Origin: a virus
Direction: 5' to 3' (one strand)
Virus record (IMG/VR): IMGVR_UViG_3300022890_000041
Span: 1-45,694 of that record
Length of the DNA: 45,694 nt
This document shows positions 3,047 through 30,410 of the stretch, one piece after another. Numbering within the stretch: the stretch's first letter is position 1; every line of letters begins with the position of its first letter. The notes below the pieces were generated by a model. The model saw only the letters and a list, made by a program, of their open reading frames with translations. It did no database searches and was not told the origin of the DNA. Position numbers and translations under genes: made by a program.

Positions 3047-4003
3047 TTACTCGTTATATACATTGATCTTACATTCCCTTAATAATTCACCGATTATAGT
3101 TTTATTGATATATAAATCGTATAACTTTGGGTGAGTCGAATGCATAATTTGAAATCTATTCATCCCTTTTTCTAAATGTACGCCAAACGGACATCCAACA
3201 CAACCAGTTCTTTTATAACCTGTTGTTTCTAATTTTCTTGCTCTATGTAATTCTTCAAATCCCATAGAAGGAATAATTTCTCCATAAGCTTTACTCAAAT
3301 CTAATTTATATTTTAAAGTATATTGCAAAATATCTTGTTCAGTCCAAAAAGATAAAGGTGTTGATCTAATAAATGAGCCTTCAAAAACATTACATCCTTC
3401 CTTGAGATATTTAAATTTCCTCTGATTAGATTCTTCAACCATTGTGCCTATAAATGGTTTTAATCCTGTTTCTTTCTCAAATTTTTTAAATGGTTTTTTT
3501 TTCAATTCATTACAACATTTATCTGAACATTTAAATTTTGAATCTACAAGCCATTGCCATTTTTTAGATATGCAAAATTGAGTTTTAGTACCATCTTCCA
3601 TATATCCAGTCATCAAACGCTTAATAAGTTTTTTTGACTTCCCCCTTTGTACTTGATGTATGAAGTGAGCTTGTTGTTTTGTAGGAAATGGAATAAAACC
3701 ATCTTTTAATAACTTAAAAAATGTTGTTTTTGGTTTTACAAATTCAATATTATCTATTCTTTTGAGTTGTTCTGTGTTCTCTGGGAAACCTACACCTGTC
3801 AGAACATGCATAGCTTTCACATCAGGATAGATACTTCTAACCAAATGTAATAAAACATTAGAATCTTTTCCATCTATTGCTACATATACTTGTCCATTTA
3901 ACTTCTCATAAAAAGTTGTTATTCTCCTTAATGACATATTAATTTTAGCCTGTAAAGGAAGACTCTGTCTTTGTGCGAGTTGCCAATATTTTATATGTTC
4001 CAT
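3047..4003 (-). CDS. PAPS reductase / adenine nucleotide alpha-hydrolase-like protein
   Basis: 318 residues. VYVAIDGKDSNVLLHLV near residue 40 is the PP-loop of the phosphoadenosine-phosphosulfate reductase family, which binds ATP or PAPS. The usual S-G-G-K-D-S is changed to I-D-G-K-D-S, so the loop is altered. CSDKCCNELKKKP near residue 155 and GCVGCPFG near residue 268 are the cysteine motifs of this family, the latter likely holding iron-sulfur or zinc. Phage members are common and their role is usually unknown; relatives include the DndC-type enzymes that add sulfur to DNA. No other sulfur-modification genes are visible here. AT-rich, AGA-using class. Confidence 0.75.
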   Translation of the reverse strand: MEHIKYWQLAQRQSLPLQAKINMSLRRITTFYEKLNGQVYVAIDGKDSNVLLHLVRSIYPDVKAMHVLTGVGFPENTEQLKRIDNIEFVKPKTTFFKLLKDGFIPFPTKQQAHFIHQVQRGKSKKLIKRLMTGYMEDGTKTQFCISKKWQWLVDSKFKCSDKCCNELKKKPFKKFEKETGLKPFIGTMVEESNQRKFKYLKEGCNVFEGSFIRSTPLSFWTEQDILQYTLKYKLDLSKAYGEIIPSMGFEELHRARKLETTGYKRTGCVGCPFGVHLEKGMNRFQIMHSTHPKLYDLYINKTIIGELLRECKINVYNE

Positions 4004-9261: not shown

Positions 9262-9383
9262 TCGCTATCACCTTTGTTTGTGCTTATTGACTTCATTCGT
9301 TGCCAAAACTTAACCTCGATATCACTCATTAATGCCTTATCACTATCATTTAATAATACATCAATCCTCTTTGTTTGTTCCAT
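9258..9383 (-). CDS. Hypothetical 41-residue protein
   Basis: 41 residues, helical, with AGGTGAT at good spacing before ATG and an ATGA overlap with the 93-residue gene. Contains LNDSDKALMSDIEVKFWQRM. No known motif. Confidence 0.5.
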   Translation of the reverse strand: MEQTKRIDVLLNDSDKALMSDIEVKFWQRMKSISTNKGDSE

Positions 9384-9394
9384 TATTATCACCT

Positions 9395-9577
9395 TTATTT
9401 GTTTTCTTGAAAATAACACTCTTTACAGTATTCATTAAACTTATCAGATTCAAGATCAATAAAATCATTAATAAGAGATTCTTTATTGTCCTCTATCCAA
9501 ACATACATACATTCCTCTCTTTGTTCCTGCATCTCTTCTCGTATGATCTCGTCTTTATGGTCTTGTTCTAAAGTAAT
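9395..9577 (-). CDS. Acidic 60-residue protein, probable ATT start
   Basis: The frame is open from ATT 9577-9575 to the stop at 9395-9397, with no ATG, GTG or TTG before an internal ATG at 9532. GGAGGAGG lies just upstream of the ATT, in the last codons of the preceding gene, whose stop is two bases before the ATT. The product is acidic and helical, with three cysteines (C-M-Y; C-K-E-C) near the middle and end. If ATT is not used the product would be 45 residues from ATG 9532, which has a poor ribosome-binding site. Confidence 0.45.
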   Translation of the reverse strand: MTLEQDHKDEIIREEMQEQREECMYVWIEDNKESLINDFIDLESDKFNEYCKECYFQENK

Positions 9578-9579
9578 TT

Positions 9580-9708
9580 TTAATCCTCCTCCATGTTTTT
9601 ATATGAACTGCACCCGTTATCCGTAATTTTAGGGTAATAATTTTGTTTAATGCATAATCCGTCTATGTTATCAATCCAATAACAATTTTTACATTTCTTT
9701 AATAACAT
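9580..9708 (-). CDS. Cys-containing miniprotein
   Basis: 42 residues with CKNC, then a cysteine after 9 residues and another after 13, a pattern seen in small zinc or disulfide-type viral miniproteins and similar to the frame at 1545-1637. AGAGG lies upstream of ATG. Its last codons form the Shine-Dalgarno of the ATT-started gene that follows. Function unknown. Confidence 0.5.
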   Translation of the reverse strand: MLLKKCKNCYWIDNIDGLCIKQNYYPKITDNGCSSYKNMEED

Positions 9709-9878
9709 CTTAATTCCTCTGTGTAATCATCTAAATATTCAAAACTACCATAATGTAACGTTTTCTTACATCGTTTACAGTAATAATAAGGTACATCTTT
9801 TAATATTCCTATGGGTTCAACACCTTTAAATGTGACAAATAAACCACATTTTATACATCTTGCTTTAGGTATTGTCAT
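9699..9878 (-). CDS. Zinc-ribbon protein, DVPYYYC family copy 1
   Basis: 59 residues from ATG 9878 (M-T-I-P-K-A-R), chosen because GGTG lies 9 bases upstream; an upstream in-frame ATG at 9917 falls inside the previous gene. CIKC and CKRC pairs form a ribbon. The stretch KDVPYYYCK recurs in the protein at 11226-11465, so these are paralogues. Function unknown. Confidence 0.55.
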   Translation of the reverse strand: MTIPKARCIKCGLFVTFKGVEPIGILKDVPYYYCKRCKKTLHYGSFEYLDDYTEELRCY

Positions 9879-9879
9879 T

Positions 9880-10116
9880 TTATAATACACCATAAAACCA
9901 TTCAAACCAATAATCATGGTTTTGTTTTGCAGTTAACCGTATGATGTTATCTTTCTCTAAACTTATTAAAGTTCTCCAGTTACATTTAAAGGCATAACTA
10001 TTATTACTATCAACAACAAAACTATATTGAGTTTCTTTATTTAAATTATCTCTCATGACATATATAGTTTGTACTTTGTTTGTTTTAATGTATTGTTTAA
10101 CTTGTTCTTTATTCAT
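9880..10116 (-). CDS. Hypothetical 78-residue protein
   Basis: 78 residues, basic, beta-like (TQYSFVVDSNNSYAFKCNWRTLI), with AGGT 8 bases before ATG. It overlaps the gene upstream by eight bases. No motif recognised. Confidence 0.5.
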   Translation of the reverse strand: MNKEQVKQYIKTNKVQTIYVMRDNLNKETQYSFVVDSNNSYAFKCNWRTLISLEKDNIIRLTAKQNHDYWFEWFYGVL

Positions 10117-10315
10117 AATATAGCACCTTTTTAGTTAATGTTCCATTCTTAATATTATATCTAAATAAATATACTGTTTTATCTTTTGTGGCTGTTGTGG
10201 TTATTTCATGGGGGATATCCCTTTCGTTTAACTCAAAACAAGTTGAAATATCAGTATAACCTAACTGTTTAAACTTCTGGAAGTTTTTAGTTTGTAAATT
10301 GTTTATATCAATCAT
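10109..10315 (-). CDS. Hypothetical 68-residue protein
   Basis: 68 residues with GGGTGAT before ATG. Short helices followed by a beta hairpin-like end (KTVYLFRYNIKNGTLTKKVLYYE). No known family. Confidence 0.5.
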   Translation of the reverse strand: MIDINNLQTKNFQKFKQLGYTDISTCFELNERDIPHEITTTATKDKTVYLFRYNIKNGTLTKKVLYYE

Positions 10316-10316
10316 T

Positions 10317-10529
10317 TTAAATCACCCCATTAAATTTAAGTTTCATGAGATTACTATAATGTCCTGTTATGTATAGATGTAAGCCAAGGGGTAAATCTAA
10401 ATCCTTTATGACTTGTTCAATCTCTGGATCTTGTAACCCATTATTACGTAATTGTTGTAAACGTTGAACTATCTCTACAACCTCAGGTTTAATGTTCTTA
10501 TACTTCTGATATAATTCTATTGCATTCAT
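10317..10529 (-). CDS. Hypothetical helical 70-residue protein
   Basis: 70 residues with AAGGTGAT before ATG. Nearly all helical (ALELYQKYKNI-type N-terminus; VVEIVQRLQQL; IEQVIKDLDLPLGLHLYITGHY). The helical segments could hold a small DNA-binding fold, but no helix-turn-helix can be called. It is one candidate for the repressor that would bind the dyad operators. Confidence 0.45.
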   Translation of the reverse strand: MNAIELYQKYKNIKPEVVEIVQRLQQLRNNGLQDPEIEQVIKDLDLPLGLHLYITGHYSNLMKLKFNGVI

Positions 10530-10553
10530 TTTGTATCACCTTGTTTTATATTA

Positions 10554-10718
10554 TTATTTACCTAAAAAAATGCTTTTGTTGTCTACATTTAAAAAAGTAT
10601 ATGTATTCCAAAAGTTATTATTTAATTGTTGTTCTGTTAAATAATTATCTCTCTTTTCTTTAGTGTTAAATAAATAATCTTTCCCATTATCCATATTTTT
10701 AATACCATATTTATTCAT
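10554..10718 (-). CDS. Hypothetical 54-residue protein
   Basis: 54 residues, Asn/Lys/Tyr-rich, AT-rich, with AGGTGAT in the end of the gene upstream, which it overlaps by eight bases. No motif. The open frame, start site and packing support it. Confidence 0.45.
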   Translation of the reverse strand: MNKYGIKNMDNGKDYLFNTKEKRDNYLTEQQLNNNFWNTYTFLNVDNKSIFLGK

Positions 10719-10935
10719 GTTTATCACCTTCATTAACTAAATCAAAATGTAAATCTTCAAATAACTTTAAACAATTATACAATTCAGAATAAGTAAATAC
10801 TATCCTACCGTATAATTTTCCATTTTCCATTATTTGTATCCTATTCTTATTATCAGAAACTGATAAATCAAAGTTTCGTGTATATCGTTTATTTAAATTC
10901 GATAACATATTTATACATATTTCTTTATATTTCAT
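10711..10935 (-). CDS. Hypothetical 74-residue protein
   Basis: 74 residues with TAGGTGAT before ATG. Contains RNFDLSVSDNKNRIQIMENG and a helical end. AT-rich, no recognised family. It begins after the A-rich (minus-strand T-rich) tract at 10983-11000, so it may be transcribed from its own promoter or by read-through. Confidence 0.5.
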   Translation of the reverse strand: MKYKEICINMLSNLNKRYTRNFDLSVSDNKNRIQIMENGKLYGRIVFTYSELYNCLKLFEDLHFDLVNEGDKHE

Positions 10936-10982
10936 TTTGTATCACCTACATTAGTTGTTATTAAATCCATAACCTAAACCAT

Positions 10983-11000
10983 AAAAAAGAAAAATAAAAA
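10983..11000 (-). terminator. Possible poly-T terminator on the minus strand
   Basis: Read on the minus strand this is CTTTTTATTTTTCTTTTTT, the T-rich type of archaeal terminator. It follows the 41-residue gene ending at 11056 and lies in a 120-base gap. No stem is needed in archaea. Termination here would be partial. Confidence 0.35.
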
Positions 11001-11055
11001 GAGGTTAAGGCTGATCTCCTACAAGCAAATCTTACCTTATTAGTTACTGCAATGT

Positions 11056-11181
11056 TCATTCTTTAAACCTCTGCTTAAGACATAAAGGTGTCATATTCAT
11101 TAGTTGATAACCTTCACGTATCCTAAACATACCCATTAGCTTGGATATTAATGATCTCTTACCATAAGTTCTTATTGTCAT
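11056..11181 (-). CDS. Basic 41-residue protein
   Basis: 41 residues with a strong GAGGTG Shine-Dalgarno. It is basic (M-T-I-R-T-Y-G-K-R-S) with several methionines in the middle. No family recognised. Confidence 0.45.
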   Translation of the reverse strand: MTIRTYGKRSLISKLMGMFRIREGYQLMNMTPLCLKQRFKE

Positions 11182-11225
11182 CTTATAACACCTCTTTTAT
11201 CGTATCTACTTCCTTAACTACTGTT

Positions 11226-11465
11226 TTAATCCTCCTCAATGAAATCTATTAATTCTTGTAATGATTCAATAGGATTACAAGATTTACAGTAATAATAAGG
11301 TACATCTTTCTCTATTAATTCAATGTCTACACCATCTTCTAATAATTGATTCGTTCTATTTACATTAACTGATCCATCACAAACATACCAACCATCATAA
11401 ACGTATAATATACTCTTTTGATGTTCACTACCATATAAACAATTAATTTCTTTTTCTTCTTTCAT
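11226..11465 (-). CDS. Zinc-binding protein, DVPYYYC family copy 2
   Basis: 79 residues, acidic at both ends. EKDVPYYYCKSC matches KDVPYYYCKRC of the protein at 9699-9878; the other likely metal ligands are C in INCLYG and C in YVCDG. The duplicated motif in two leftward genes suggests a shared partner or role. Preceded by AGGTGAT. Confidence 0.55.
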   Translation of the reverse strand: MKEEKEINCLYGSEHQKSILYVYDGWYVCDGSVNVNRTNQLLEDGVDIELIEKDVPYYYCKSCNPIESLQELIDFIEED

Positions 11466-11471
11466 TTTGTA

Positions 11472-11606
11472 TCACCTTTGCTTTCTTTGATTATTCACTC
11501 CAAATCTAAGGATATTGTTCATACACTCCTCAGAACAATAAGCAATTTGTAAATCTGTTTCCCTTTCAAAAGGAAGTTTCTTACCACAATTATCACATTT
11601 ACTCAT
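11472..11606 (-). CDS. Small zinc-finger protein (MYM/YHS-like pattern)
   Basis: 44 residues. CDNCGKKLPF then YCSEECMNNIL gives C-x2-C ... C-x3-C, the usual pattern of very small treble-clef or MYM-type fingers. It overlaps its neighbours and begins inside the end of the first leftward gene. Function unknown. Confidence 0.55.
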   Translation of the reverse strand: MSKCDNCGKKLPFERETDLQIAYCSEECMNNILRFGVNNQRKQR

Positions 11607-11745
11607 TTGTACCACCTGGCTGTTTTATATAATGTAATGCACAAACAAAACGATCCAATCCTTTGATGTTCATTGTAAACCTTCCTGCAGGAGATAACTC
11701 CATTCTGCAGATGTGACATATAATCTTATGTTGGTTGTTTACCAT
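11599..11745 (-). CDS. First leftward gene, leaderless zinc protein
   Basis: 48 residues. CHIC near residue 10 and a later C-x2-H (CALHY) suggest a zinc fold. Its ATG lies about 27 bases from the centre of the TATA box at 11768-11775, so its mRNA probably starts at the ATG. Being the first product of the left arm and directly controlled by the dyad operator, it is a candidate early regulator, though no known DNA-binding fold is visible. Confidence 0.55.
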   Translation of the reverse strand: MVNNQHKIICHICRMELSPAGRFTMNIKGLDRFVCALHYIKQPGGTNE

Positions 11746-11753
11746 AGGATAAG

Positions 11754-11771
11754 TATAGTAGTACTACTATA
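11754..11771. promoter_or_regulatory. 18-bp perfect palindrome, operator of the leftward promoter
   Basis: TATAGTAGTACTACTATA reads the same on both strands. It lies between the TATA box and the start point of the leftward transcript, the usual place for archaeal repressors that block polymerase loading. A near-copy occupies the same place in the rightward promoter at 12674-12691. Confidence 0.7.
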
Positions 11772-11786
11772 TAAACCTTTCGGTTG
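11768..11786 (-). promoter_or_regulatory. BRE and TATA box of the leftward promoter
   Basis: On the minus strand CAACCGAAAGG (BRE-like) is followed by TTTATATA, whose centre is about 27 bases from the ATG at 11745. A second TATA-like stretch, TTATATATAAG, lies further upstream at 11787-11798 and may serve as an alternative. Confidence 0.65.
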
Positions 11787-11978
11787 CTTATATATAACTC
11801 TATATACATACCATATACTCCTACTACAGACCCCCTACTAACATTACACAATGCATAGTCTTATAAAGTACTATCCTTAGAACGTAACTCCTGAGAAATA
11901 ACAACTTACTAATAGAAGATTATCTATGCTATTACTCTATTACTACGTCATCATTCCTCAGTAAAAACTTCAGAATGA

Positions 11979-12003
11979 TATGATGATATAAGACATCATC
12001 ATA
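11979..12003. repeat. Hairpin, 9-bp stem and 7-base loop
   Basis: TATGATGAT and ATCATCATA form a perfect stem around ATAAGAC. It abuts the larger hairpin starting at 12001. Confidence 0.75.
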
Positions 12004-12040
12004 CAAAGTATGATGTATATACTAATATACTACTTTGTAT
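12001..12040. repeat. Long cruciform-type inverted repeat, 16 paired bases
   Basis: ATACAAAGTA at 12001-12010 pairs with TACTTTGTAT at 12031-12040, and GTATAT at 12015-12020 pairs with ATATAC at 12025-12030, leaving a four-base bulge and a four-base loop. This is the strongest hairpin in the control region and a good candidate for an origin or a protein-binding site. Confidence 0.8.
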
Positions 12041-12158
12041 CGTTCTAATGTAAACATAATAAGGTTTTATACTTGTTGTGTACTACGATTGTATGAGTAT
12101 ACGTTAGTATATGAATACTGAGGAGTACAAGACTATATAACATCATACTATAGTAAAG

Positions 12159-12178
12159 CAATAGCTAACAAGCTATTG
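12159..12178. repeat. Hairpin, 8-bp stem and AACA loop
   Basis: CAATAGCT and AGCTATTG flank AACA. A ten-base palindrome TACTATAGTA at 12146-12155 lies just before it and resembles half of the promoter operators. Confidence 0.75.
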
Positions 12179-12245
12179 ATGTGTTCGTTATGTCATTCGC
12201 TACGCTCATTCCTAACTCACACATGCTGTTGGTAGAAAATAATCA

Positions 12246-12331
12246 CTAAGGCTAAGTGACAACAACACCAACGTTACTATGGGGTAGGGGTGATAACTAA
12301 TAAAGCTGTTGTTGTGAGTCACTGTACTTAG
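12246..12331. repeat. Large imperfect inverted repeat with a competing partner
   Basis: CTAAG, AGTGAC and AACAACA on the left (12246-12267) pair in order with TGTTGTT, GTCACT and CTTAG on the right (12307-12331), with small bulges. The right side also has TTAGGAAT (12328-12335), which pairs perfectly with ATTCCTAA at 12208-12215, so two folds compete. Confidence 0.55.
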
Positions 12332-12474
12332 GAATTATATATTATTTTTGAAGAAGTAATGTATGTGATGTATTATATAGTTTAGTGTTCATAGTTAAAG
12401 TATAGGTGTTATGTGTTGCTTTGTTTTTTTATGTTACGAGATATAGGTTTTAAAAAAGGAGTAAGAATTCGTAT

Positions 12475-12604
12475 CCAGGAACGTCATAAACATCATTACG
12501 TGAGCCATCGCCTGGTACAAGCCTGAATTAGCTGTCTCTCACGTTCAATCTCTGTTTCTAAGCTTAGATTGCGATAAAAGCAAACGATACGACTAATACC
12601 GCAA
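12475..12604. ncRNA. GC-richer structured block, candidate noncoding RNA or origin element
   Basis: In very AT-rich surroundings this block is visibly richer in G and C and holds a series of stems: CCAGG/CCTGG (12475-12479 with 12511-12515), ACGTGAG/CTCACGT (12498-12504 with 12538-12544), CAATCT/AGATTG (12546-12551 with 12566-12571), the palindrome TCTAAGCTTAGA (12557-12568) and TTGCG/CGCAA (12569-12573 with 12600-12604). Some overlap and so are alternatives. Strand is not known. It does not fold as a tRNA by eye. Confidence 0.35.
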
Positions 12605-12662
12605 TACCTTTAGTAATATGATGTTAATTTAAATATTTTTCTAAAAAACCCAATAAAATAAA

Positions 12663-12677
12663 GGAAAGATATATATA
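12663..12677 (+). promoter_or_regulatory. BRE and TATA box of the rightward promoter
   Basis: GGAAAGA (BRE-like) is followed by TATATATA at 12670-12677, centred about 27 bases before the ATG at 12701. The transcript is therefore expected to be leaderless. Confidence 0.7.
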
Positions 12678-12691
12678 GTAGTTATACTATA
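12674..12691. promoter_or_regulatory. Dyad operator of the rightward promoter
   Basis: TATAGTA and TACTATA flank GTTA, giving the same arms and the same total length as the palindrome in the leftward promoter at 11754-11771. It overlaps the end of the TATA box. One protein probably controls both arms. Confidence 0.7.
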
Positions 12692-12700
12692 CTTTCATTT

Positions 12701-12916
12701 ATGTTAACTAAAGAAGATAAGATATTAATAAAGGATGTATTACTTAAATCTGTTAATAATTATGATGTTTATAAGAAGGCTTTAGCTGAGTTAGACATTG
12801 AAGAGATAGATAATAAGGATCGTGTTGAATTATGCATCCCATTGAAAGAAATAGATGATGGATTAGGTCCTGATAGGAAGTTTACTAAAGACGAATTAGG
12901 TAAATATAAAAAATGA
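12701..12916 (+). CDS. First rightward gene, leaderless acidic protein
   Basis: 71 residues, helical and acidic (MLTKEDKILIKDVLLKSV; ALAELDIEEIDNKDRVEL). No Shine-Dalgarno, as expected for a leaderless mRNA from the promoter at 12663-12677. Not recognised. It overlaps the next gene by four bases. Confidence 0.6.
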   Translation: MLTKEDKILIKDVLLKSVNNYDVYKKALAELDIEEIDNKDRVELCIPLKEIDDGLGPDRKFTKDELGKYKK

Positions 12917-22825: not shown

Positions 22826-23473
22826 ATGGTAACAACACGTACAACTGTAATATGTATCTCGATGATACTATTGTTCATTCTTATGGTAGGTTGTAGTTGT
22901 ACCCCTATAGAACCAGACTTAGATCCAGACAATTCCAGTACAGGTGCAGACATACTTAATCCATTAATACTTACTAAAGATGTAGTGTTTACTTCAAAGA
23001 ATACGTATGATGTTTCTGGATTAAATTTTAGATGTAAACAAACCACAAAAACATATAATAGAACAAGTATGGGTAAAGTTAATACCATGATATGTTATGA
23101 CGTGTATACAGTTGTAAAGTGTGATGAACGGGATGCAATATTAAATGTTACCACTAAAGAATGTTATATCATGAAAGAAGAGTGTGGTGAGTTTGAAACA
23201 CTTAAACCTGTGATAGAACAGTATAACATTTCAACATGTGTTAAAGATACTAAAGAGATCTTGTATCATGATACAATCTTAAAGTATGGTCAAAAGAATA
23301 TTGAATGTTCAATGTTAAATAAAGATACAATAATATGTGATGATATGAGAGGTAAAGATGGGAATGGAGATGGTATTTGTCAATCAGGAGAAACGTGTCA
23401 TACTTATAAAATAGAAGAAAATAATATCCAACTTGATAAAATTAAGAATGGTAACGTGGTATTAGCAAAATGA
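22826..23473 (+). CDS. Predicted lipoprotein
   Basis: 215 residues. MVTTRTTVICISMILLFIL followed by MVGCSC is a lipoprotein signal with a lipobox (V-G-C), so the mature protein starts at the cysteine near residue 23 and would be lipid-anchored on the cell surface. The rest has many cysteines (at least ten) and a DGNGDGIC segment resembling an EF-hand-type calcium loop. It lies among other secreted proteins. Function not known; superinfection exclusion or surface display are possibilities. Confidence 0.55.
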   Translation: MVTTRTTVICISMILLFILMVGCSCTPIEPDLDPDNSSTGADILNPLILTKDVVFTSKNTYDVSGLNFRCKQTTKTYNRTSMGKVNTMICYDVYTVVKCDERDAILNVTTKECYIMKEECGEFETLKPVIEQYNISTCVKDTKEILYHDTILKYGQKNIECSMLNKDTIICDDMRGKDGNGDGICQSGETCHTYKIEENNIQLDKIKNGNVVLAK

Positions 23474-26400
23474 ATAAAATAATGGTATTATGTTTATGTA
23501 TTTTCTTATTCATTCCTATTGTATTTTCTGATACTTGCGATACAACATATTTAGATGATAATACTATAGTACATTATTCGTTTGAAGAAACATCTAAACC
23601 GTATATAGATGATACAGAAACAATTAATTTAACCCTTGGTACGGATCCAGAGAGAATAGATGTAAGTGGTAGTTTAAATTATACTTATGGACAGAATTTT
23701 ACAGGGTCAGACGAATCATACAGCACAGCTAACACATTATTAAAATATGATGTATTTAGTTTTTGTTATTGGTATAGAGCTGATGATATAACTGGTTCAA
23801 ATATGGGTTTAGCAAGTTATCAAACAACACAGTATGGGCCTGGTTGGCGAATTAATATGCATAAAAATGACGGATCTATTGTATTTGATGTTTATGATGG
23901 TTCTGCCAATAGAGATGGAAGTTATAATACTGTTGGTTCTATATCTGAAGATGTTTGGTATCATGCCTGTAATGTTTGGGATGGTGATGATGGTTTTACA
24001 TATATTAAAGGATCTTCAAGTATACATTATGGCGATGCTCATGATACAATAGCTTATGCTGCAACTCAAGGGTTATATGTTGGTAACACTGAGGCATTTT
24101 TTAGTACAGCAGATTGGTCAGTGGCAGGTTGGGTTTATTTTGATGTAGCTTTAAATGAAACATGTAGAAGTTATGTACGAAGTAATACTTACCCTTACAG
24201 TGATGTGGTACCACCAGTTATATCTAACATTAATTGTACTTCATGTGACGCAAATAATATAACCGCAGATAGAACACCAACGTTCACGCTTGATACAGAT
24301 GAAAGTTCTAACTGTGGCATATCAAGTCAAAATAGTAGTTACACTAACTGTACAACGACAGGAGTACTTAATCATACTTGTACTATCCCTGTTGTAGATC
24401 AACTTGATTATGGTATTGTTAATGTGTTTTTTAATTGTACTGACGGTTCAAGTAATAGTAGAACAACAAGTGTAGAGATTGAAGTTCTATTAATCAATCT
24501 AACTTTCGTATCACCAACACCAGCTAACAATTCAGTAATATATGTAAATACAACCGAAATAAAGATTAATATTACAAATGCTACCACATTAGAACAATTC
24601 ATTTTTAACTGGAATGGAACAAACGAAACACAAGTTAAGGATATAGAATTTAATTTTACTGAAGAAAGTTTAACAGCATTAAGTTTTTATAATGGAACAG
24701 ATTTAATTGAATTATATAATGAAAGTTTATTAGTGTCATATAATTTTGACAATATTTCTAACTTAGGTGAAAGTGATTCTACTGTTGTTGATGTATCTGG
24801 AAATATGAACGCAACAGTGATAGGTGCATCTTTTACAACTTCTGGAAGATATAATGGTGCTTATAGTTATGACGGAACAGATGATTATATGAGTGCAGCA
24901 CAGACAGATTTAGATTTTAAAGTTGGACAAGAATGGACAATATCAACATGGGTTTATCGTAAAGATGATATAAGTAGTGGAGTGTTAGCTATATGGGGAC
25001 CAATCGGTGTTGTGGATAGAAATTGGTTATTACATTATGATGGCACAGAGTATGTACTTGGAATAAGAGGTGATGCAAATGCTCCTATGGGTAGTACACC
25101 ATTAAATGAATGGCATCATTTATTATCAAGTTATAATGGTACACATTTACATACTTATGTTAATGCTGTTTTTAATTCATCAACAGCTACAACTGTAAAT
25201 GGTTTAGGTGCTAATGAACCTTTAGAGATTGGAAGAAGGGGTGGGAGTAATATTTATGCATTTAATGGTTCTATAGATGAACTTCGTATTTGGAATAGGT
25301 CTTTCACTTCTAATGAAATTCAACAAATATATCTATCTAACTTAAATAAATTTGATACAGATGAATGGACATTTTATACTAATCAAACATTAGATTCTTA
25401 TCAAGTTAATATTAGAGGAAATAATAAAATAGATTTTGATAAGATAAGTTCAAGTAATTATTTATTTTCAACTAATAAGACAGTAGTTGAAGGTAATTAT
25501 ACATTTCAAGGGTTTGCTCAAGATAATTTAAGTAATTGGTTTAATACAGAAGAACGAATATTAAGAGTATTAGATCCTGCACCACAGATTCAGTTTCAGT
25601 CTCCTACACCAACAAACGGTTCAACAGTTATAACTGATGAAGTTACAATAAATGTTTCTATAACAGAATCAACTTTACAACAGTTTGTTTATAATTGGAA
25701 TGGAACAAACTATACTTCACCGATTTATAATTTATATGACAATGATATAGATAATTGTTCAGTTATGGATTATACAGATACTTCATTACACTTAGCATTG
25801 AACTTTGATAATATAAGTTCATTAGGTGAAACAACATCTCACCTTTTTGATTTAAGTCCAGCAGGTAATAATGGAACAATCTCAGGTGGGGTTGTTTATA
25901 ATACGTCAGGTTATTATGGACTTGCAATGGAATTTGATGGTGTAGAAGATTGTATTAATGTTGGGGATGTTATTAATAATCTTTCATTCACAAAGACTGC
26001 ATGGGTTAATAGACAAACAGGTGTGTTTGCTAATAACATTATTTCAGGTGGTGGAAACGGAGATATATTATGGGCTACATCATCTTATAGTTATAGATTA
26101 ACAGCAGGACATGGTTCTTCTTTAAATATTGTTCAAGATCCTATTCCATTAGAAGTTGAAACATGGTATCATGTAGCAGTATCGTATGATGGTGATGGAA
26201 TGTATTTATATAAAGATGGTAAGTTAGTTGATAGTGCAACAGGAGTAACACTTGATAGTGATCCAGGCGTTACATATGTTGGGTGTTTTGCAGGTAATAA
26301 TAGTTGGAATGGGCGTATAGATGAACCAAGAATTTGGAATATATCTTTATCTGAGACAGAGATTAAACAAATATATTTATCAACTCTTAATATGTATGAA

Positions 26401-28113
26401 TCTAATGAATGGGAATTTTCTACTACACAACACAATTTAATAGAAGGCAATTATACGTTTCAAGCATATGCAACTGATTCAAATGATAGATTAAATAGTA
26501 CTGAAGAAAGGCAAGTAACTATACAAGCATTAGACCTTGTTATTGGTTATCCAACAGAATATACGCTTTATCAGAGACATAATGATACGCATGGTGAAAT
26601 AAAGATTCAAGGAATATATGGGACAACAAACAACGCCACATCAATAGATGCAAGATTTAATGGTGGTGATTGGGTAACAATAGATGCATCACCTTCAGGT
26701 AATTCATTCATAGGATATTTAAATGCTACAATAGGAAACGGTACATTAGATATTGCTTATGGAAATAATTATTCAATTAATACATCAGTTTATAATATTT
26801 CTATTGGTGATTTATATGTTGTTGGCGGTCAATCTAATGCATATGGTACAGCATTACATTATCAGAATTTAAGTGATTCAAATAATTATTTATCAACAGT
26901 TTTTATTTATGATAATACTTGGAAAATAAATAATGATCCAACAACAGCACTTGGAGTTACAAATGGTTGGGGTTCAGCATGGCCTAATGTTGCAAACTAT
27001 GTTATACAGAATCAAAGTGTTCCTGTATCGTTTATAGCAGCAGCAACTCCTGGAGCACAATTATTTGAATGGATTAAAGGTGGTGAAGATTATGATAATA
27101 TGATTGAAATGACAGCAAAAGCAACTAATGGCACAATGAAAATTAAATCATATTTATTTTTTCAAGGTGAGAATGATATGTTGAATGGATGGAATGAAGG
27201 AACAGAATATCACGATAATTTAACACAGATGGCAGATGATTTTATTAATGATACTGATTGCATTGCTGATACAATTATAGTAGGTCAGACTAACAGATAT
27301 TCTTATCAAGGAACAAGTGCAACAAGACCTCATCAAGACAACGTTAGACAAGCACAACAGGATGCTTGGGGAGAAACTAATAACATTTCTAAAGGGCCAG
27401 TCACATATGATATAAATTTAAGTATTGATGGATTACATTTCAGAACAAATTCAGAGATGCAGAATTTCAGTTTAAGATGGTATTATTCAATGTTAGATGT
27501 TTTATATAGTGATTCAAGTTTCGATAATCCAATACCTACAATTTTTAATTTGATTGATAATGGTTCGAATTCAATATTAAGAATTACATATGATCAAAAT
27601 ATAGTAAGTAGACATTGGAATGGAAGTACAAATACGTTAGCAAAAGGATGGTTAATATATAATTTAACAGGTAGCACAAATTATTCTGATTCTGATGTTT
27701 TAAAAACAAACATAACAGCGAATGTAATAGATGTTGTGTTTGATTATGATGCAGTTATTCCTTATGGTTCAAGATTGTATTATGGAAGTTTTAATGATGG
27801 ATATAATAAATATGTTGTATCTGGATTAACAACAGAACTTCCTAGTAGATTAATATTTAATGAAACACTTAATGTTACTGTATCAGACACTTGCACATAT
27901 TCAGGTTCAGGTGATTGGACTGTGTTATGTACCGATAACTGTACCATAACAACTAACACAGACACAACAACAAACGCATTAATTATTGATGGTGCTGTTG
28001 GTTACTTTGAACTGTTAGCTAATGTAACATGTGAGATGTTTGCAATAGAGGAAGGGTGTCAGTTCAGGAACAAGATGAACGATAATAAACGGTTAGCGGT
28101 GAAGGAAGATTAA
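23470..28113 (+). CDS. Giant secreted LamG/esterase protein
   Basis: 1547 residues. A signal peptide (1-20, ending VFS-D) is followed by a LamG/ConA-like domain (about 25-235), an Ig-like spacer (about 240-400), a second LamG (about 418-622), another spacer, a third LamG (about 771-977), and a SASA-type carbohydrate esterase domain (about 1110-1340). Its GQSNA has the nucleophile S1122; QGENDM is at about 1232-1237; DGLHF holds D1320 and H1323 of the catalytic site. It would bind and de-acetylate glycans of the host surface layer. The Ig/LamG style (SPTPANNS...NWNGTN) resembles DPANN surface proteins. AT-rich, sequon-rich. C-terminal end is cysteine-rich. Confidence 0.7.
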   Translation: MNKIMVLCLCIFLFIPIVFSDTCDTTYLDDNTIVHYSFEETSKPYIDDTETINLTLGTDPERIDVSGSLNYTYGQNFTGSDESYSTANTLLKYDVFSFCYWYRADDITGSNMGLASYQTTQYGPGWRINMHKNDGSIVFDVYDGSANRDGSYNTVGSISEDVWYHACNVWDGDDGFTYIKGSSSIHYGDAHDTIAYAATQGLYVGNTEAFFSTADWSVAGWVYFDVALNETCRSYVRSNTYPYSDVVPPVISNINCTSCDANNITADRTPTFTLDTDESSNCGISSQNSSYTNCTTTGVLNHTCTIPVVDQLDYGIVNVFFNCTDGSSNSRTTSVEIEVLLINLTFVSPTPANNSVIYVNTTEIKINITNATTLEQFIFNWNGTNETQVKDIEFNFTEESLTALSFYNGTDLIELYNESLLVSYNFDNISNLGESDSTVVDVSGNMNATVIGASFTTSGRYNGAYSYDGTDDYMSAAQTDLDFKVGQEWTISTWVYRKDDISSGVLAIWGPIGVVDRNWLLHYDGTEYVLGIRGDANAPMGSTPLNEWHHLLSSYNGTHLHTYVNAVFNSSTATTVNGLGANEPLEIGRRGGSNIYAFNGSIDELRIWNRSFTSNEIQQIYLSNLNKFDTDEWTFYTNQTLDSYQVNIRGNNKIDFDKISSSNYLFSTNKTVVEGNYTFQGFAQDNLSNWFNTEERILRVLDPAPQIQFQSPTPTNGSTVITDEVTINVSITESTLQQFVYNWNGTNYTSPIYNLYDNDIDNCSVMDYTDTSLHLALNFDNISSLGETTSHLFDLSPAGNNGTISGGVVYNTSGYYGLAMEFDGVEDCINVGDVINNLSFTKTAWVNRQTGVFANNIISGGGNGDILWATSSYSYRLTAGHGSSLNIVQDPIPLEVETWYHVAVSYDGDGMYLYKDGKLVDSATGVTLDSDPGVTYVGCFAGNNSWNGRIDEPRIWNISLSETEIKQIYLSTLNMYESNEWEFSTTQHNLIEGNYTFQAYATDSNDRLNSTEERQVTIQALDLVIGYPTEYTLYQRHNDTHGEIKIQGIYGTTNNATSIDARFNGGDWVTIDASPSGNSFIGYLNATIGNGTLDIAYGNNYSINTSVYNISIGDLYVVGGQSNAYGTALHYQNLSDSNNYLSTVFIYDNTWKINNDPTTALGVTNGWGSAWPNVANYVIQNQSVPVSFIAAATPGAQLFEWIKGGEDYDNMIEMTAKATNGTMKIKSYLFFQGENDMLNGWNEGTEYHDNLTQMADDFINDTDCIADTIIVGQTNRYSYQGTSATRPHQDNVRQAQQDAWGETNNISKGPVTYDINLSIDGLHFRTNSEMQNFSLRWYYSMLDVLYSDSSFDNPIPTIFNLIDNGSNSILRITYDQNIVSRHWNGSTNTLAKGWLIYNLTGSTNYSDSDVLKTNITANVIDVVFDYDAVIPYGSRLYYGSFNDGYNKYVVSGLTTELPSRLIFNETLNVTVSDTCTYSGSGDWTVLCTDNCTITTNTDTTTNALIIDGAVGYFELLANVTCEMFAIEEGCQFRNKMNDNKRLAVKED

Positions 28114-28123
28114 AATAAATAAA

Positions 28124-28131
28124 TTTATAAA
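28124..28131 (+). promoter_or_regulatory. TATA box before the capsid gene
   Basis: TTTATAAA, 105 bases before the preferred capsid-gene ATG, would give a start near 28155 and a leader of about 80 bases containing the two alternative hairpins. A second TATA-like TATAAAAATA at 28171-28180 is closer. Confidence 0.4.
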
Positions 28132-28177
28132 GAAGTTCAGACATAAGTTATTGTGTAGATAATTAATTAATATAAAA

Positions 28178-28211
28178 ATAAACGCCAGAGATTGTGTTTA
28201 CTGGCGTTTAT
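28178..28211 (+). promoter_or_regulatory. Hairpin 1 of the capsid-gene leader
   Basis: ATAAACGCCAG (28178-28188) and CTGGCGTTTAT (28201-28211) form a perfect 11-bp stem with a 12-base loop. Its left arm shares bases with hairpin 2, so the two cannot form together. Confidence 0.75.
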
Positions 28212-28223
28212 ACTTTCTCTGGC
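28184..28223 (+). promoter_or_regulatory. Hairpin 2 of the capsid-gene leader
   Basis: GCCAGAGA (28184-28191) pairs perfectly with TCTCTGGC (28216-28223), spanning hairpin 1's right arm. The alternative fold lies just before the start codon at 28236. Confidence 0.7.
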
Positions 28224-28235
28224 ATTATAATCAAG

Positions 28236-30380
28236 ATGCCTAAAATGACTAAAGAAACAATTAGAAAGGAACAATTCTGTAAGGTTGGTGGATTTGAGTT
28301 TAAAGATTTAGATGATGATAAAATCATTGGTGGATTCATAGCTACCACACACCTTGATAGTGGGTTTGAACATCCAGAGTTAGGTTGGGTTTGTGATAAG
28401 ATTGATAAAGAGTTACTCGGTGAATGGGCAACAGAACTTAACCAAGGTATACCAAGAGCAAACAAAGTTAGTATACATCATGATCGGAAAGATAAGATTG
28501 TGGCTGGTGTAGCACAAAAGAATACTGCATCAATCATAGAATTACCAGACGGTGAGTACGGATTATATGTTGATTCTTTAATAGATAGTACACATCCAGA
28601 TTATAGTACAACAGACCATAGGCTAGGGAATGGAACCCTTGACAGTTTCAGTATTGAGTTTTGTAACTCAGAATTTACAACATACAGTAAAGATGGGTTT
28701 GTTGAACGACATTTACATCCTGGGACGGAGTTGTTAGGTTATACTTTAGCATCCAGGCCAATGAATGAATACGCTGTACGTATTAAAGAAGTTAACATGA
28801 ATCAAAATAAAATAGGCATTAAGGAGGAAAATAAAATGACTGAAGATAAAATTAAAGAGTTAGAAGCAAAAGAGAAAGAATTAACAGAGAAGGCTGATGC
28901 TCTTGCAAAGAAGGAACAGGAACTTAAAGAAGAAGCAGAGAAACCTGCTGAAGAAGAACCTACAGAAGAAGAACCTAAAGAATCTACAATTTCAAAAGAA
29001 GATCTTGCATTACTTAAAGAGATTAAATCAATGAAAGCTTCCGAAGCTAAAGAGAAAGAAATGAAAGAGTTCGTTAAACAAGCTAAAGAAGAATTGAAAG
29101 AATCCCTTGACAAGGTTGATGTTAAGAGTAAGGTCCAAGTTAAAGATACTGAAGATTTATCTGTTGAAGTTAAAGAAATCAAAGAATACGCTGACACAGT
29201 TATTGTTGAAGCTAAAGAACACAAAGATGGTAGAGTAACTTTCGAGAAAGAAGGTAAAATAATCTCTGTTGACAAGATGTGGCATGAAGCTGGTCAGATG
29301 GCTGATAAGTTAGGATTAACTGTTGATGGTCTTAAGATGGATGCACAGAAATGTGAACATAGAAAGTTTGATAACTTTACTACAAACGGTAAGATGCTTG
29401 AAACTAAAGGATTAGGTATTGACACTAACCAAGGTTCAATCAATTATTTAAGTGCTGTTGAACTTGCTGATGTGTTTGATCCTGTTATTCATAACGCACT
29501 TAACCAGGAAACTGTCACATGGAACGTATTATCTAAAGAAGATAAAAGTATGAAAGGTAATAACCAAGTCCAGTTCAAAGTTAAGACTGCAGCTAACACA
29601 ACTACTGGTGCATACTTAGGTAACGCTGTCACAACAGGTAACGTAACAAGAATCAACTGTCAAACCAAGTTTAAGAAGTATCAAGTTGGTGTTGAAGTTG
29701 ACGGTGACATGATTGCTGCTGCACGTGGTGGTCCAATCGGTGACGTATTTTCTAACGAAGTACGAGATTCAACCATTGACTTAATGGCAGATATTAATGT
29801 AGATTTGTATGCTGAAGTTGGTGCTGAAACTGCTGCTGGTGTGATTGGGTTTGAATATATAACTGACAGTGCAGGTAACACTACATTATACAGTTATACA
29901 AGGTCAAGTACCACAGACAGTGCTAACGTGTTCCTTAACCCGTCCAGTGCTGGTGATACATACATTAACCAAGCTAGTGCAGACATTACGTTAAGTAACC
30001 TTAGAGCTGCTAAAAGGCAAGCTTTAAAGAACGGTGCACAGATTGGGAACTTAGTATACTTCACTGACCATATCCAAGGCGATAAGTTTAGAGGAATATA
30101 TGACGCTGCTCAGAGAAACACACCTACATCTACACGATGGGGTTTCGAAGGAAGGCCAGAGTTTGACGGTATACCAATCTTTGAAGATAAAGATTGTAAC
30201 GATGATGACTGGTTCCTTGTTGATCTTACCACACACAAGATTGCTATGTGGGTTCCACCTACATTAGAAATGTTAGGTAAAGATTCTGACAGTGAGAAAG
30301 GGTTCATCAAGACATACTTTGCAACATATAATACATTCATCAGACGTATGGTGCAGATTTATGGTTGTGCAACAACTTAA
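28236..30380 (+). CDS. Prohead protease, scaffold and major capsid fusion protein
   Basis: About 714 residues from ATG 28236; an in-frame GTG at 28194 lies in the hairpin loop and is unlikely. The N-terminal domain (to about 180) is an HK97-type (S78-like) prohead protease, with H in SIHHDRKDK and S in TLDSFSIEF as the probable catalytic pair. About 200-330 is a Lys/Glu-rich coiled coil, the scaffold. The rest is an HK97-fold capsid domain rich in Ala, Thr and Gly. The protease would cut scaffold from capsid during maturation. No Shine-Dalgarno lies before the ATG, but an internal one occurs at 28820 (see next entry). Confidence 0.7.
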   Translation: MPKMTKETIRKEQFCKVGGFEFKDLDDDKIIGGFIATTHLDSGFEHPELGWVCDKIDKELLGEWATELNQGIPRANKVSIHHDRKDKIVAGVAQKNTASIIELPDGEYGLYVDSLIDSTHPDYSTTDHRLGNGTLDSFSIEFCNSEFTTYSKDGFVERHLHPGTELLGYTLASRPMNEYAVRIKEVNMNQNKIGIKEENKMTEDKIKELEAKEKELTEKADALAKKEQELKEEAEKPAEEEPTEEEPKESTISKEDLALLKEIKSMKASEAKEKEMKEFVKQAKEELKESLDKVDVKSKVQVKDTEDLSVEVKEIKEYADTVIVEAKEHKDGRVTFEKEGKIISVDKMWHEAGQMADKLGLTVDGLKMDAQKCEHRKFDNFTTNGKMLETKGLGIDTNQGSINYLSAVELADVFDPVIHNALNQETVTWNVLSKEDKSMKGNNQVQFKVKTAANTTTGAYLGNAVTTGNVTRINCQTKFKKYQVGVEVDGDMIAAARGGPIGDVFSNEVRDSTIDLMADINVDLYAEVGAETAAGVIGFEYITDSAGNTTLYSYTRSSTTDSANVFLNPSSAGDTYINQASADITLSNLRAAKRQALKNGAQIGNLVYFTDHIQGDKFRGIYDAAQRNTPTSTRWGFEGRPEFDGIPIFEDKDCNDDDWFLVDLTTHKIAMWVPPTLEMLGKDSDSEKGFIKTYFATYNTFIRRMVQIYGCATT
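28836..30380 (+). CDS. Nested scaffold-capsid product from an internal start
   Basis: In frame inside the fusion gene, AAGGAGGAAAATAAAATG places a consensus Shine-Dalgarno 8 bases before ATG 28836. Translation here gives 514 residues: scaffold (coiled coil about 5-120) and capsid domain, without protease. This would supply many more capsid than protease copies, like lambda C/Nu3 in principle. Upstream protease codons end with an out-of-frame TAG just before the Shine-Dalgarno, so the fusion may have come from loss of a stop. Confidence 0.6.
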   Translation: MTEDKIKELEAKEKELTEKADALAKKEQELKEEAEKPAEEEPTEEEPKESTISKEDLALLKEIKSMKASEAKEKEMKEFVKQAKEELKESLDKVDVKSKVQVKDTEDLSVEVKEIKEYADTVIVEAKEHKDGRVTFEKEGKIISVDKMWHEAGQMADKLGLTVDGLKMDAQKCEHRKFDNFTTNGKMLETKGLGIDTNQGSINYLSAVELADVFDPVIHNALNQETVTWNVLSKEDKSMKGNNQVQFKVKTAANTTTGAYLGNAVTTGNVTRINCQTKFKKYQVGVEVDGDMIAAARGGPIGDVFSNEVRDSTIDLMADINVDLYAEVGAETAAGVIGFEYITDSAGNTTLYSYTRSSTTDSANVFLNPSSAGDTYINQASADITLSNLRAAKRQALKNGAQIGNLVYFTDHIQGDKFRGIYDAAQRNTPTSTRWGFEGRPEFDGIPIFEDKDCNDDDWFLVDLTTHKIAMWVPPTLEMLGKDSDSEKGFIKTYFATYNTFIRRMVQIYGCATT

Positions 30381-30383
30381 ACC

Positions 30384-30410
30384 TTTTTTTTATTTTTTAC
30401 TTTTTATATT
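30384..30410 (+). terminator. Poly-T terminator after the capsid gene
   Basis: A run of T broken by single A and C (TTTTTTTATTTTTTACTTTT) directly after the capsid stop is the classic archaeal terminator. It probably separates capsid mRNA from the decoration genes, or gives partial termination. Confidence 0.6.

Follow-up and report, generated by a model that had tools for sequence, protein, structure and literature searches.

Directly before its capsid gene, the virus of IMG/VR record IMGVR_UViG_3300022890_000041 carries two overlapping inverted repeats, which raises the question of whether these work in the capsid mRNA, work as DNA, or have no function in the place where they stand. A preliminary description, made from the letters of the sequence, likened them to an RNA switch or a protein-bound operator. 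The whole stretch that was analysed (45,694 nucleotides) is referred to here as the window, and the coordinates are those of the window unless a relative is named.

The capsid gene and the nature of the virus

The gene downstream of the repeats (28236..30380, + strand; 714 amino acids) had been called the capsid gene, an assignment that relatives bear out. The window protein itself has no family match at the usual threshold among curated bacterial, archaeal and phage proteins. Of its aligned relatives, 10/14 match SU10_MCP, 3/14 match Peptidase_S78 and several match PHROG major head proteins. Foldseek agrees, retrieving SU10 capsid proteins and prohead proteases, some of them from archaeal tailed viruses, although the capsid model is of low confidence and its fold matches were used only beside the family matches from the aligned relatives. 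Judged by these matches, the gene is a protease-scaffold-capsid fusion, comprising a prohead protease, a scaffold-like coiled coil and an HK97/SU10-type major capsid protein. A second in-frame ATG lies at 28245.

Annotated phage records gave no match to the window by DNA or by protein. The virus is probably a tailed virus of archaea, because of its terminase relatives on archaeal-binned contigs, its ribosome sites of the GGTGAT kind, its TATA boxes and its T-tracts. The terminase relatives (31-32% identity) come from contigs that were assigned to Parvarchaeota and Woesearchaeota bins, and one of these contigs also holds a fragment of a capsid relative. GGTGAT or GGAGG precedes many genes of the window, TATA boxes stand before genes in the virus group (for example AAACATTTAAATAG and AACTTTATAAA), and T-tracts without hairpins end genes in the window and in relatives. 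The gene upstream of the capsid gene (23470..28113, + strand) encodes a fibre/adhesin-like protein of 1547 amino acids with three laminin-G stretches and a SASA (sialate acetylesterase) domain (Pfam matches PF13385, E 3e-43, and PF03629, E 4e-21); it is a very large gene to find inserted between structural genes. A PAPS-reductase-like gene (3047-4003, - strand) is present in the leftward gene block.

Two stems that share one strand

The two perfect stems of the preliminary description are present as reported. The first, H1 (28178..28211, + strand), pairs ATAAACGCCAG at 28178-28188 with CTGGCGTTTAT at 28201-28211 (11/11 pairs) around a 12-nt loop, and the second, H2 (28184..28223, + strand), pairs GCCAGAGA at 28184-28191 with TCTCTGGC at 28216-28223 (8/8 pairs) and is extendable to 28181-28191/28216-28226 with 10/11 pairs. 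H1 and H2 exclude each other because both use GCCAG at 28184-28188. The site also contains an 8-base word, CTGGCRTT, once inverted (28181-28188, - strand) and twice direct (28201-28208 and 28219-28226, + strand), of which the rest of the window holds one copy only.

In the whole 45.7 kb of the window, no stem other than H1 reaches 11 bp and includes 5 or more G/C. Dinucleotide shuffling of whole windows leads to an expectation, per window, of 0.82 stems that reach 11 bp and of 0.05 that also have 5 or more G/C, and in 60 whole-window shuffles there was no stem of the latter kind with an overlapping second stem. When the 122-nt intergenic region was shuffled, a stem of 11 bp or more arose in 3/3000 cases and an overlapping stem pair in 0/3000. 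H1 is clearly non-random. Given H1, the chance of a second stem like H2 (at least 8 bp, using one H1 arm) is P = 0.007 when at least 5 G/C are required and only the leader is considered, and P = 0.09 for any composition over a wider region; H2 is marginal beyond chance. The Rfam 15 covariance models gave no match above the gathering score across the whole window.

H1 lies 65 nt past the stop codon of the fibre gene, and phage contigs commonly contain stems of this kind with a T run behind them, so that H1 might mark the 3' end of the fibre transcript, as a terminator, processing or stabilising stem, and not belong to a capsid leader at all. This is considered highly improbable, since the tail of the stem (TATACTTTCTCT) is a poor T run, the window and its relatives use hairpin-less T-tracts, and the terminator scan found none here; an intrinsic terminator was rejected on the same evidence. 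Also rejected were a repeated or mobile element, since the window holds no other copy, the arm has no exact copy in 13 relatives and the 26-nt 3' block has none in viral contigs, and a three-arm recombinase site, in view of the 12-bp spacer and the absence of a second site.

A probable structured leader upstream of the start codon

Promoters were predicted with a matrix built from 12 promoters, 11 of relatives and one of the window. A predicted archaeal TATA box outside this training set (TTTATAAA, 28124..28131, + strand; matrix score 14.2) is the single strong promoter match between the fibre gene and the capsid gene, and is among only eight sites in the window, on both strands, that score at least 12. 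Archaeal promoters have a usual spacing from TATA box to start and, when this is taken together with the relative L002, in which a TATA box lies exactly 30 nt before the capsid ATG, a transcription start at approximately 28152-28156 is inferred. Since the best promoter sits upstream of both stems, H1 and H2 are probably transcribed, as part of a capsid mRNA with a predicted leader of approximately 82 nt. According to the preliminary description, transcription starting downstream of 28223 would speak against control at the RNA level; the predicted start lies upstream instead. A weaker match, TTTATAC (28206..28212, + strand), forms part of the 3' arm of H1 and stands 30 nt upstream of the ATG; as a leaderless promoter it was judged weak, in view of its matrix score of 1.6, and rejected. 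A GTG start at 28194, inside the loop, was rejected as well, as the alignment of relatives favours the ATG at 28236.

On the 3' side of the capsid gene there is an archaeal-type terminator, the T-tract CCTTTTTTTTATTTTTTAC (30384..30405, + strand), and a T-tract directly after the capsid gene is common to five viruses (the window, L002, L005, L006 and L008). The capsid gene seems to be its own transcription unit, bounded by a promoter and a T-tract as in relatives. Internal promoters within structural gene blocks are also described for the archaeal tailed virus HFTV1 (PMC12542753). As noted from the outset, no Shine-Dalgarno sequence precedes the ATG at 28236. Its absence is ordinary in the group, as several relatives lack one before the capsid gene and have leaders of 0-17 nt. 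Nevertheless, the mRNAs of archaea as a rule carry a Shine-Dalgarno sequence unless their leader is very short (PMC7531240), so that a leader of approximately 82 nt lacking this sequence is unusual. The window resembles L002, L004 and L005, with their leaderless or short-leader capsid genes, in having its own TATA box and no Shine-Dalgarno sequence, and L002 and L005 also in the T-tract after the gene, but it differs from all three (leaders of 0-16 nt, no hairpins) in the length of its leader. As it stands, the main implication is a capsid gene in a transcription unit of its own with an unusually long, structured leader.

Folding of the leader was computed with a naked-RNA model at 37 C, and the temperature of the host may differ. 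The leader is more stable than its shuffled counterparts (z -3.5; P = 0.0035 in a second test), with predicted occupancies of 97-99% (0.97-0.995) for H1 and 0.4-3% for H2. A third hairpin, H3 (28221..28240, + strand), which was absent from the preliminary description, pairs GGCAUU at 28221-28226 with GAUGCC at 28235-28240 and thereby the AUG at 28236-28238, with a pair probability of 0.94-0.99. H3 is compatible with H1, but not with H2. The best structure that lacks H1 lies 2.9 kcal/mol above the optimum, and this is also the gap between the H1+H3 state and the H2 state, the start codon being paired in the H1 state only. A partial transcript with its end at 28223-28235 folds best as H2, and H1+H3 wins once the start codon has emerged. 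When H1 was kept and the flanks were shuffled, a gap this small arose in 2.9% of cases (P 0.029) and an AUG this buried in 9.5% (P 0.095), both tests having been chosen after the sequence had been seen. By this model, the burial of the AUG in H3 and the bistability are suggestive, and barely beyond chance.

The preferred reading, to which a probability of about 0.45 is assigned, is that H1 is a stable stem-loop in the approximately 82-nt leader of a separately transcribed capsid mRNA, where it would tune translation or mRNA stability. The TATA box at 28124 would direct transcription from a point shortly past the fibre gene, with a probable end in the T-tract at 30384. By holding the GCCAG strand, H1 would leave the CTGGCATT strand free to pair across the start codon as H3, which may lower or delay initiation and give the mRNA a structured 5' end. 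H3 could be opened by the initiating ribosome, by a bound protein or during ongoing transcription, and opening would be cheap because H2 can form instead. The strong upstream TATA box, the occurrence of H1 beyond chance, the pairing of the AUG and the presence of H2 within 2.9 kcal/mol all argue for such a leader, and the points against it are the lack of conservation, the near-chance values for H3 and bistability, and a leader length that is odd for the group when no Shine-Dalgarno sequence is present. If the leader hairpin works, it would represent control of capsid synthesis by RNA structure in a tailed virus of archaea, viruses in which, to our knowledge, post-transcriptional control has been little studied.

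Stem-loops in 5' leaders that sequester start codons serve as translational operators in phages, as in the MS2 replicase operator and T4 gene 32. The window leader is similar in that a stable stem-loop immediately precedes or covers the start codon of a gene that serves the virion or replication, but differs in its lack of conservation, its probably archaeal host, the placing of the start codon in a separate small hairpin and the lack of a known binding protein. Mutually exclusive stems are found in attenuator- and riboswitch-like leaders of bacteria. The likeness here is that two stems share one strand and that the alternative controls access to the start codon; unlike in those leaders, there is no ligand pocket, covariation or Rfam match, and the alternative reaches at most a few per cent at 37 C.

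The same layout could form a two-state RNA switch, alternating between H1+H3 with the start codon closed and H2 with the start codon open, with the balance shifted by a protein (the capsid precursor, for instance) or by the kinetics of transcription and translation. The three strands, the small energy gap and the location of the AUG in the third hairpin would suit such a switch, but the low occupancy of H2, the near-chance values for bistability (P of 0.03) and AUG burial (0.1) once H1 is given, the lack of conservation and the lack of a ligand candidate all make it quite unlikely. A bistable leader in an archaeal tailed virus that provides feedback or timing control, H1+H3 closing and H2 opening the capsid start codon, is very unlikely. 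Of the switch originally proposed, the two exclusive stems stand, and a switch-like layout of H1+H3 versus H2 can be drawn, but its operation is made doubtful by a barely occupied H2, unconserved stems and near-chance bistability. Control through a ligand or the capsid protein is no more than plausible.

Relatives and DNA-level alternatives

Sixteen capsid relatives were found in viral contigs, at approximately 44-59% protein identity, the closest at 55-59%. No relative closer than approximately 59% capsid identity was found in viral contigs, and a separate terminase scan likewise gave none. This divergence is too great for alignment of the leaders or for covariation analysis. Neither H1 nor H2 stands before the capsid gene in any of the 16, so that the conservation of both stems looked for by the preliminary description is lacking (0/16, at no more than approximately 59% protein identity), a result compatible with a lineage-specific element. 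In one subgroup of relatives the capsid ORF directly follows the previous ORF. Members of the nearer subgroup have a separate TATA box for the capsid gene, predicted leaders of 0-38 nt and start codons that are mostly more open, and they lack the stems. The best reading of these comparisons is that the leader stem-loop is lineage-specific.

The absence of the stems from all relatives would also be expected if they had no leader function, being a palindrome that arose by chance or is drifting, or a small palindromic insert that separates the promoter from the start codon. The gap from the upstream stop codon to the capsid start is 122 nt in the window versus 52-81 nt in L002-L005, and the extra 40-70 nt or so is about the length of the 46-nt hairpin block. 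Moreover, viral contigs of no relation widely carry AAACGCCAG..CTGGCGTTT, often in a terminator-like form, and for this reason the stem alone is no sign of kinship. However, a stem of this strength is expected only 0.05 times per window and yet is found in the one leader of the major virion gene, and a lack of function is regarded as unlikely.

In L006 (4912-4960; the same DNA as L027 7703-7751) a nested concentric dyad, TAGTTCCAC..AGGTATATACCT..GTGGAACTA, is situated between the TATA box and the start codon of the capsid gene. Its 9 bp around a concentric palindrome (4 G/C) were matched in 0/5000 shuffles, and it is unrelated to the window stems. This dyad is a likely operator, which would act as DNA and not as RNA because its 5' arm precedes the predicted start site. 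Only a handful of strong intergenic stems occur in the window and nine relatives, two of them directly before a capsid gene, which hints that this place is under selection, perhaps by different means.

The stems of the window could themselves be a DNA operator, in which a transcription factor would recognise the three CTGGCRTT half-sites beside an ATG-proximal promoter (TTTATAC at 28206) that produces a leaderless mRNA. The centres of the half-sites are 17-18 bp apart, the TATA box of L002 has the corresponding spacing from its ATG, the L006 dyad spans its predicted start site, and other dyads adjoin TATA boxes in the virus group. Nevertheless, this is a distinctly improbable reading, as the presumed promoter scores 1.6 against 14.2 at 28124, the spacing of the half-sites lacks helical phasing, the half-sites recur as a group nowhere else in the window and the arm has no exact counterpart in 13 relatives.

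Several minor observations concern other control-like elements. In L003 (4940-4989) the capsid ORF lacks an ATG start; downstream of a GGTGAT site come an in-frame ATA and then a GTG, and a 4-codon ATG mini-ORF (MNTA) lies just upstream. Elsewhere in the window, two related palindromes, TATAGTAGTACTACTATA (11754-11771) and TATAGTAGTTATACTATA (12674-12691), each lie directly downstream of or overlap a strong TATA box (11775, - strand, and 12670, + strand) of two divergent gene blocks, and probably form a shared operator; a similar palindrome, TATATAGTAGT, follows a promoter in the relative G002. The surrounding region (9300-12900) is poorly coding, coincides with a switch of gene direction and of GC skew, contains many short palindromes and is a candidate replication or control region.
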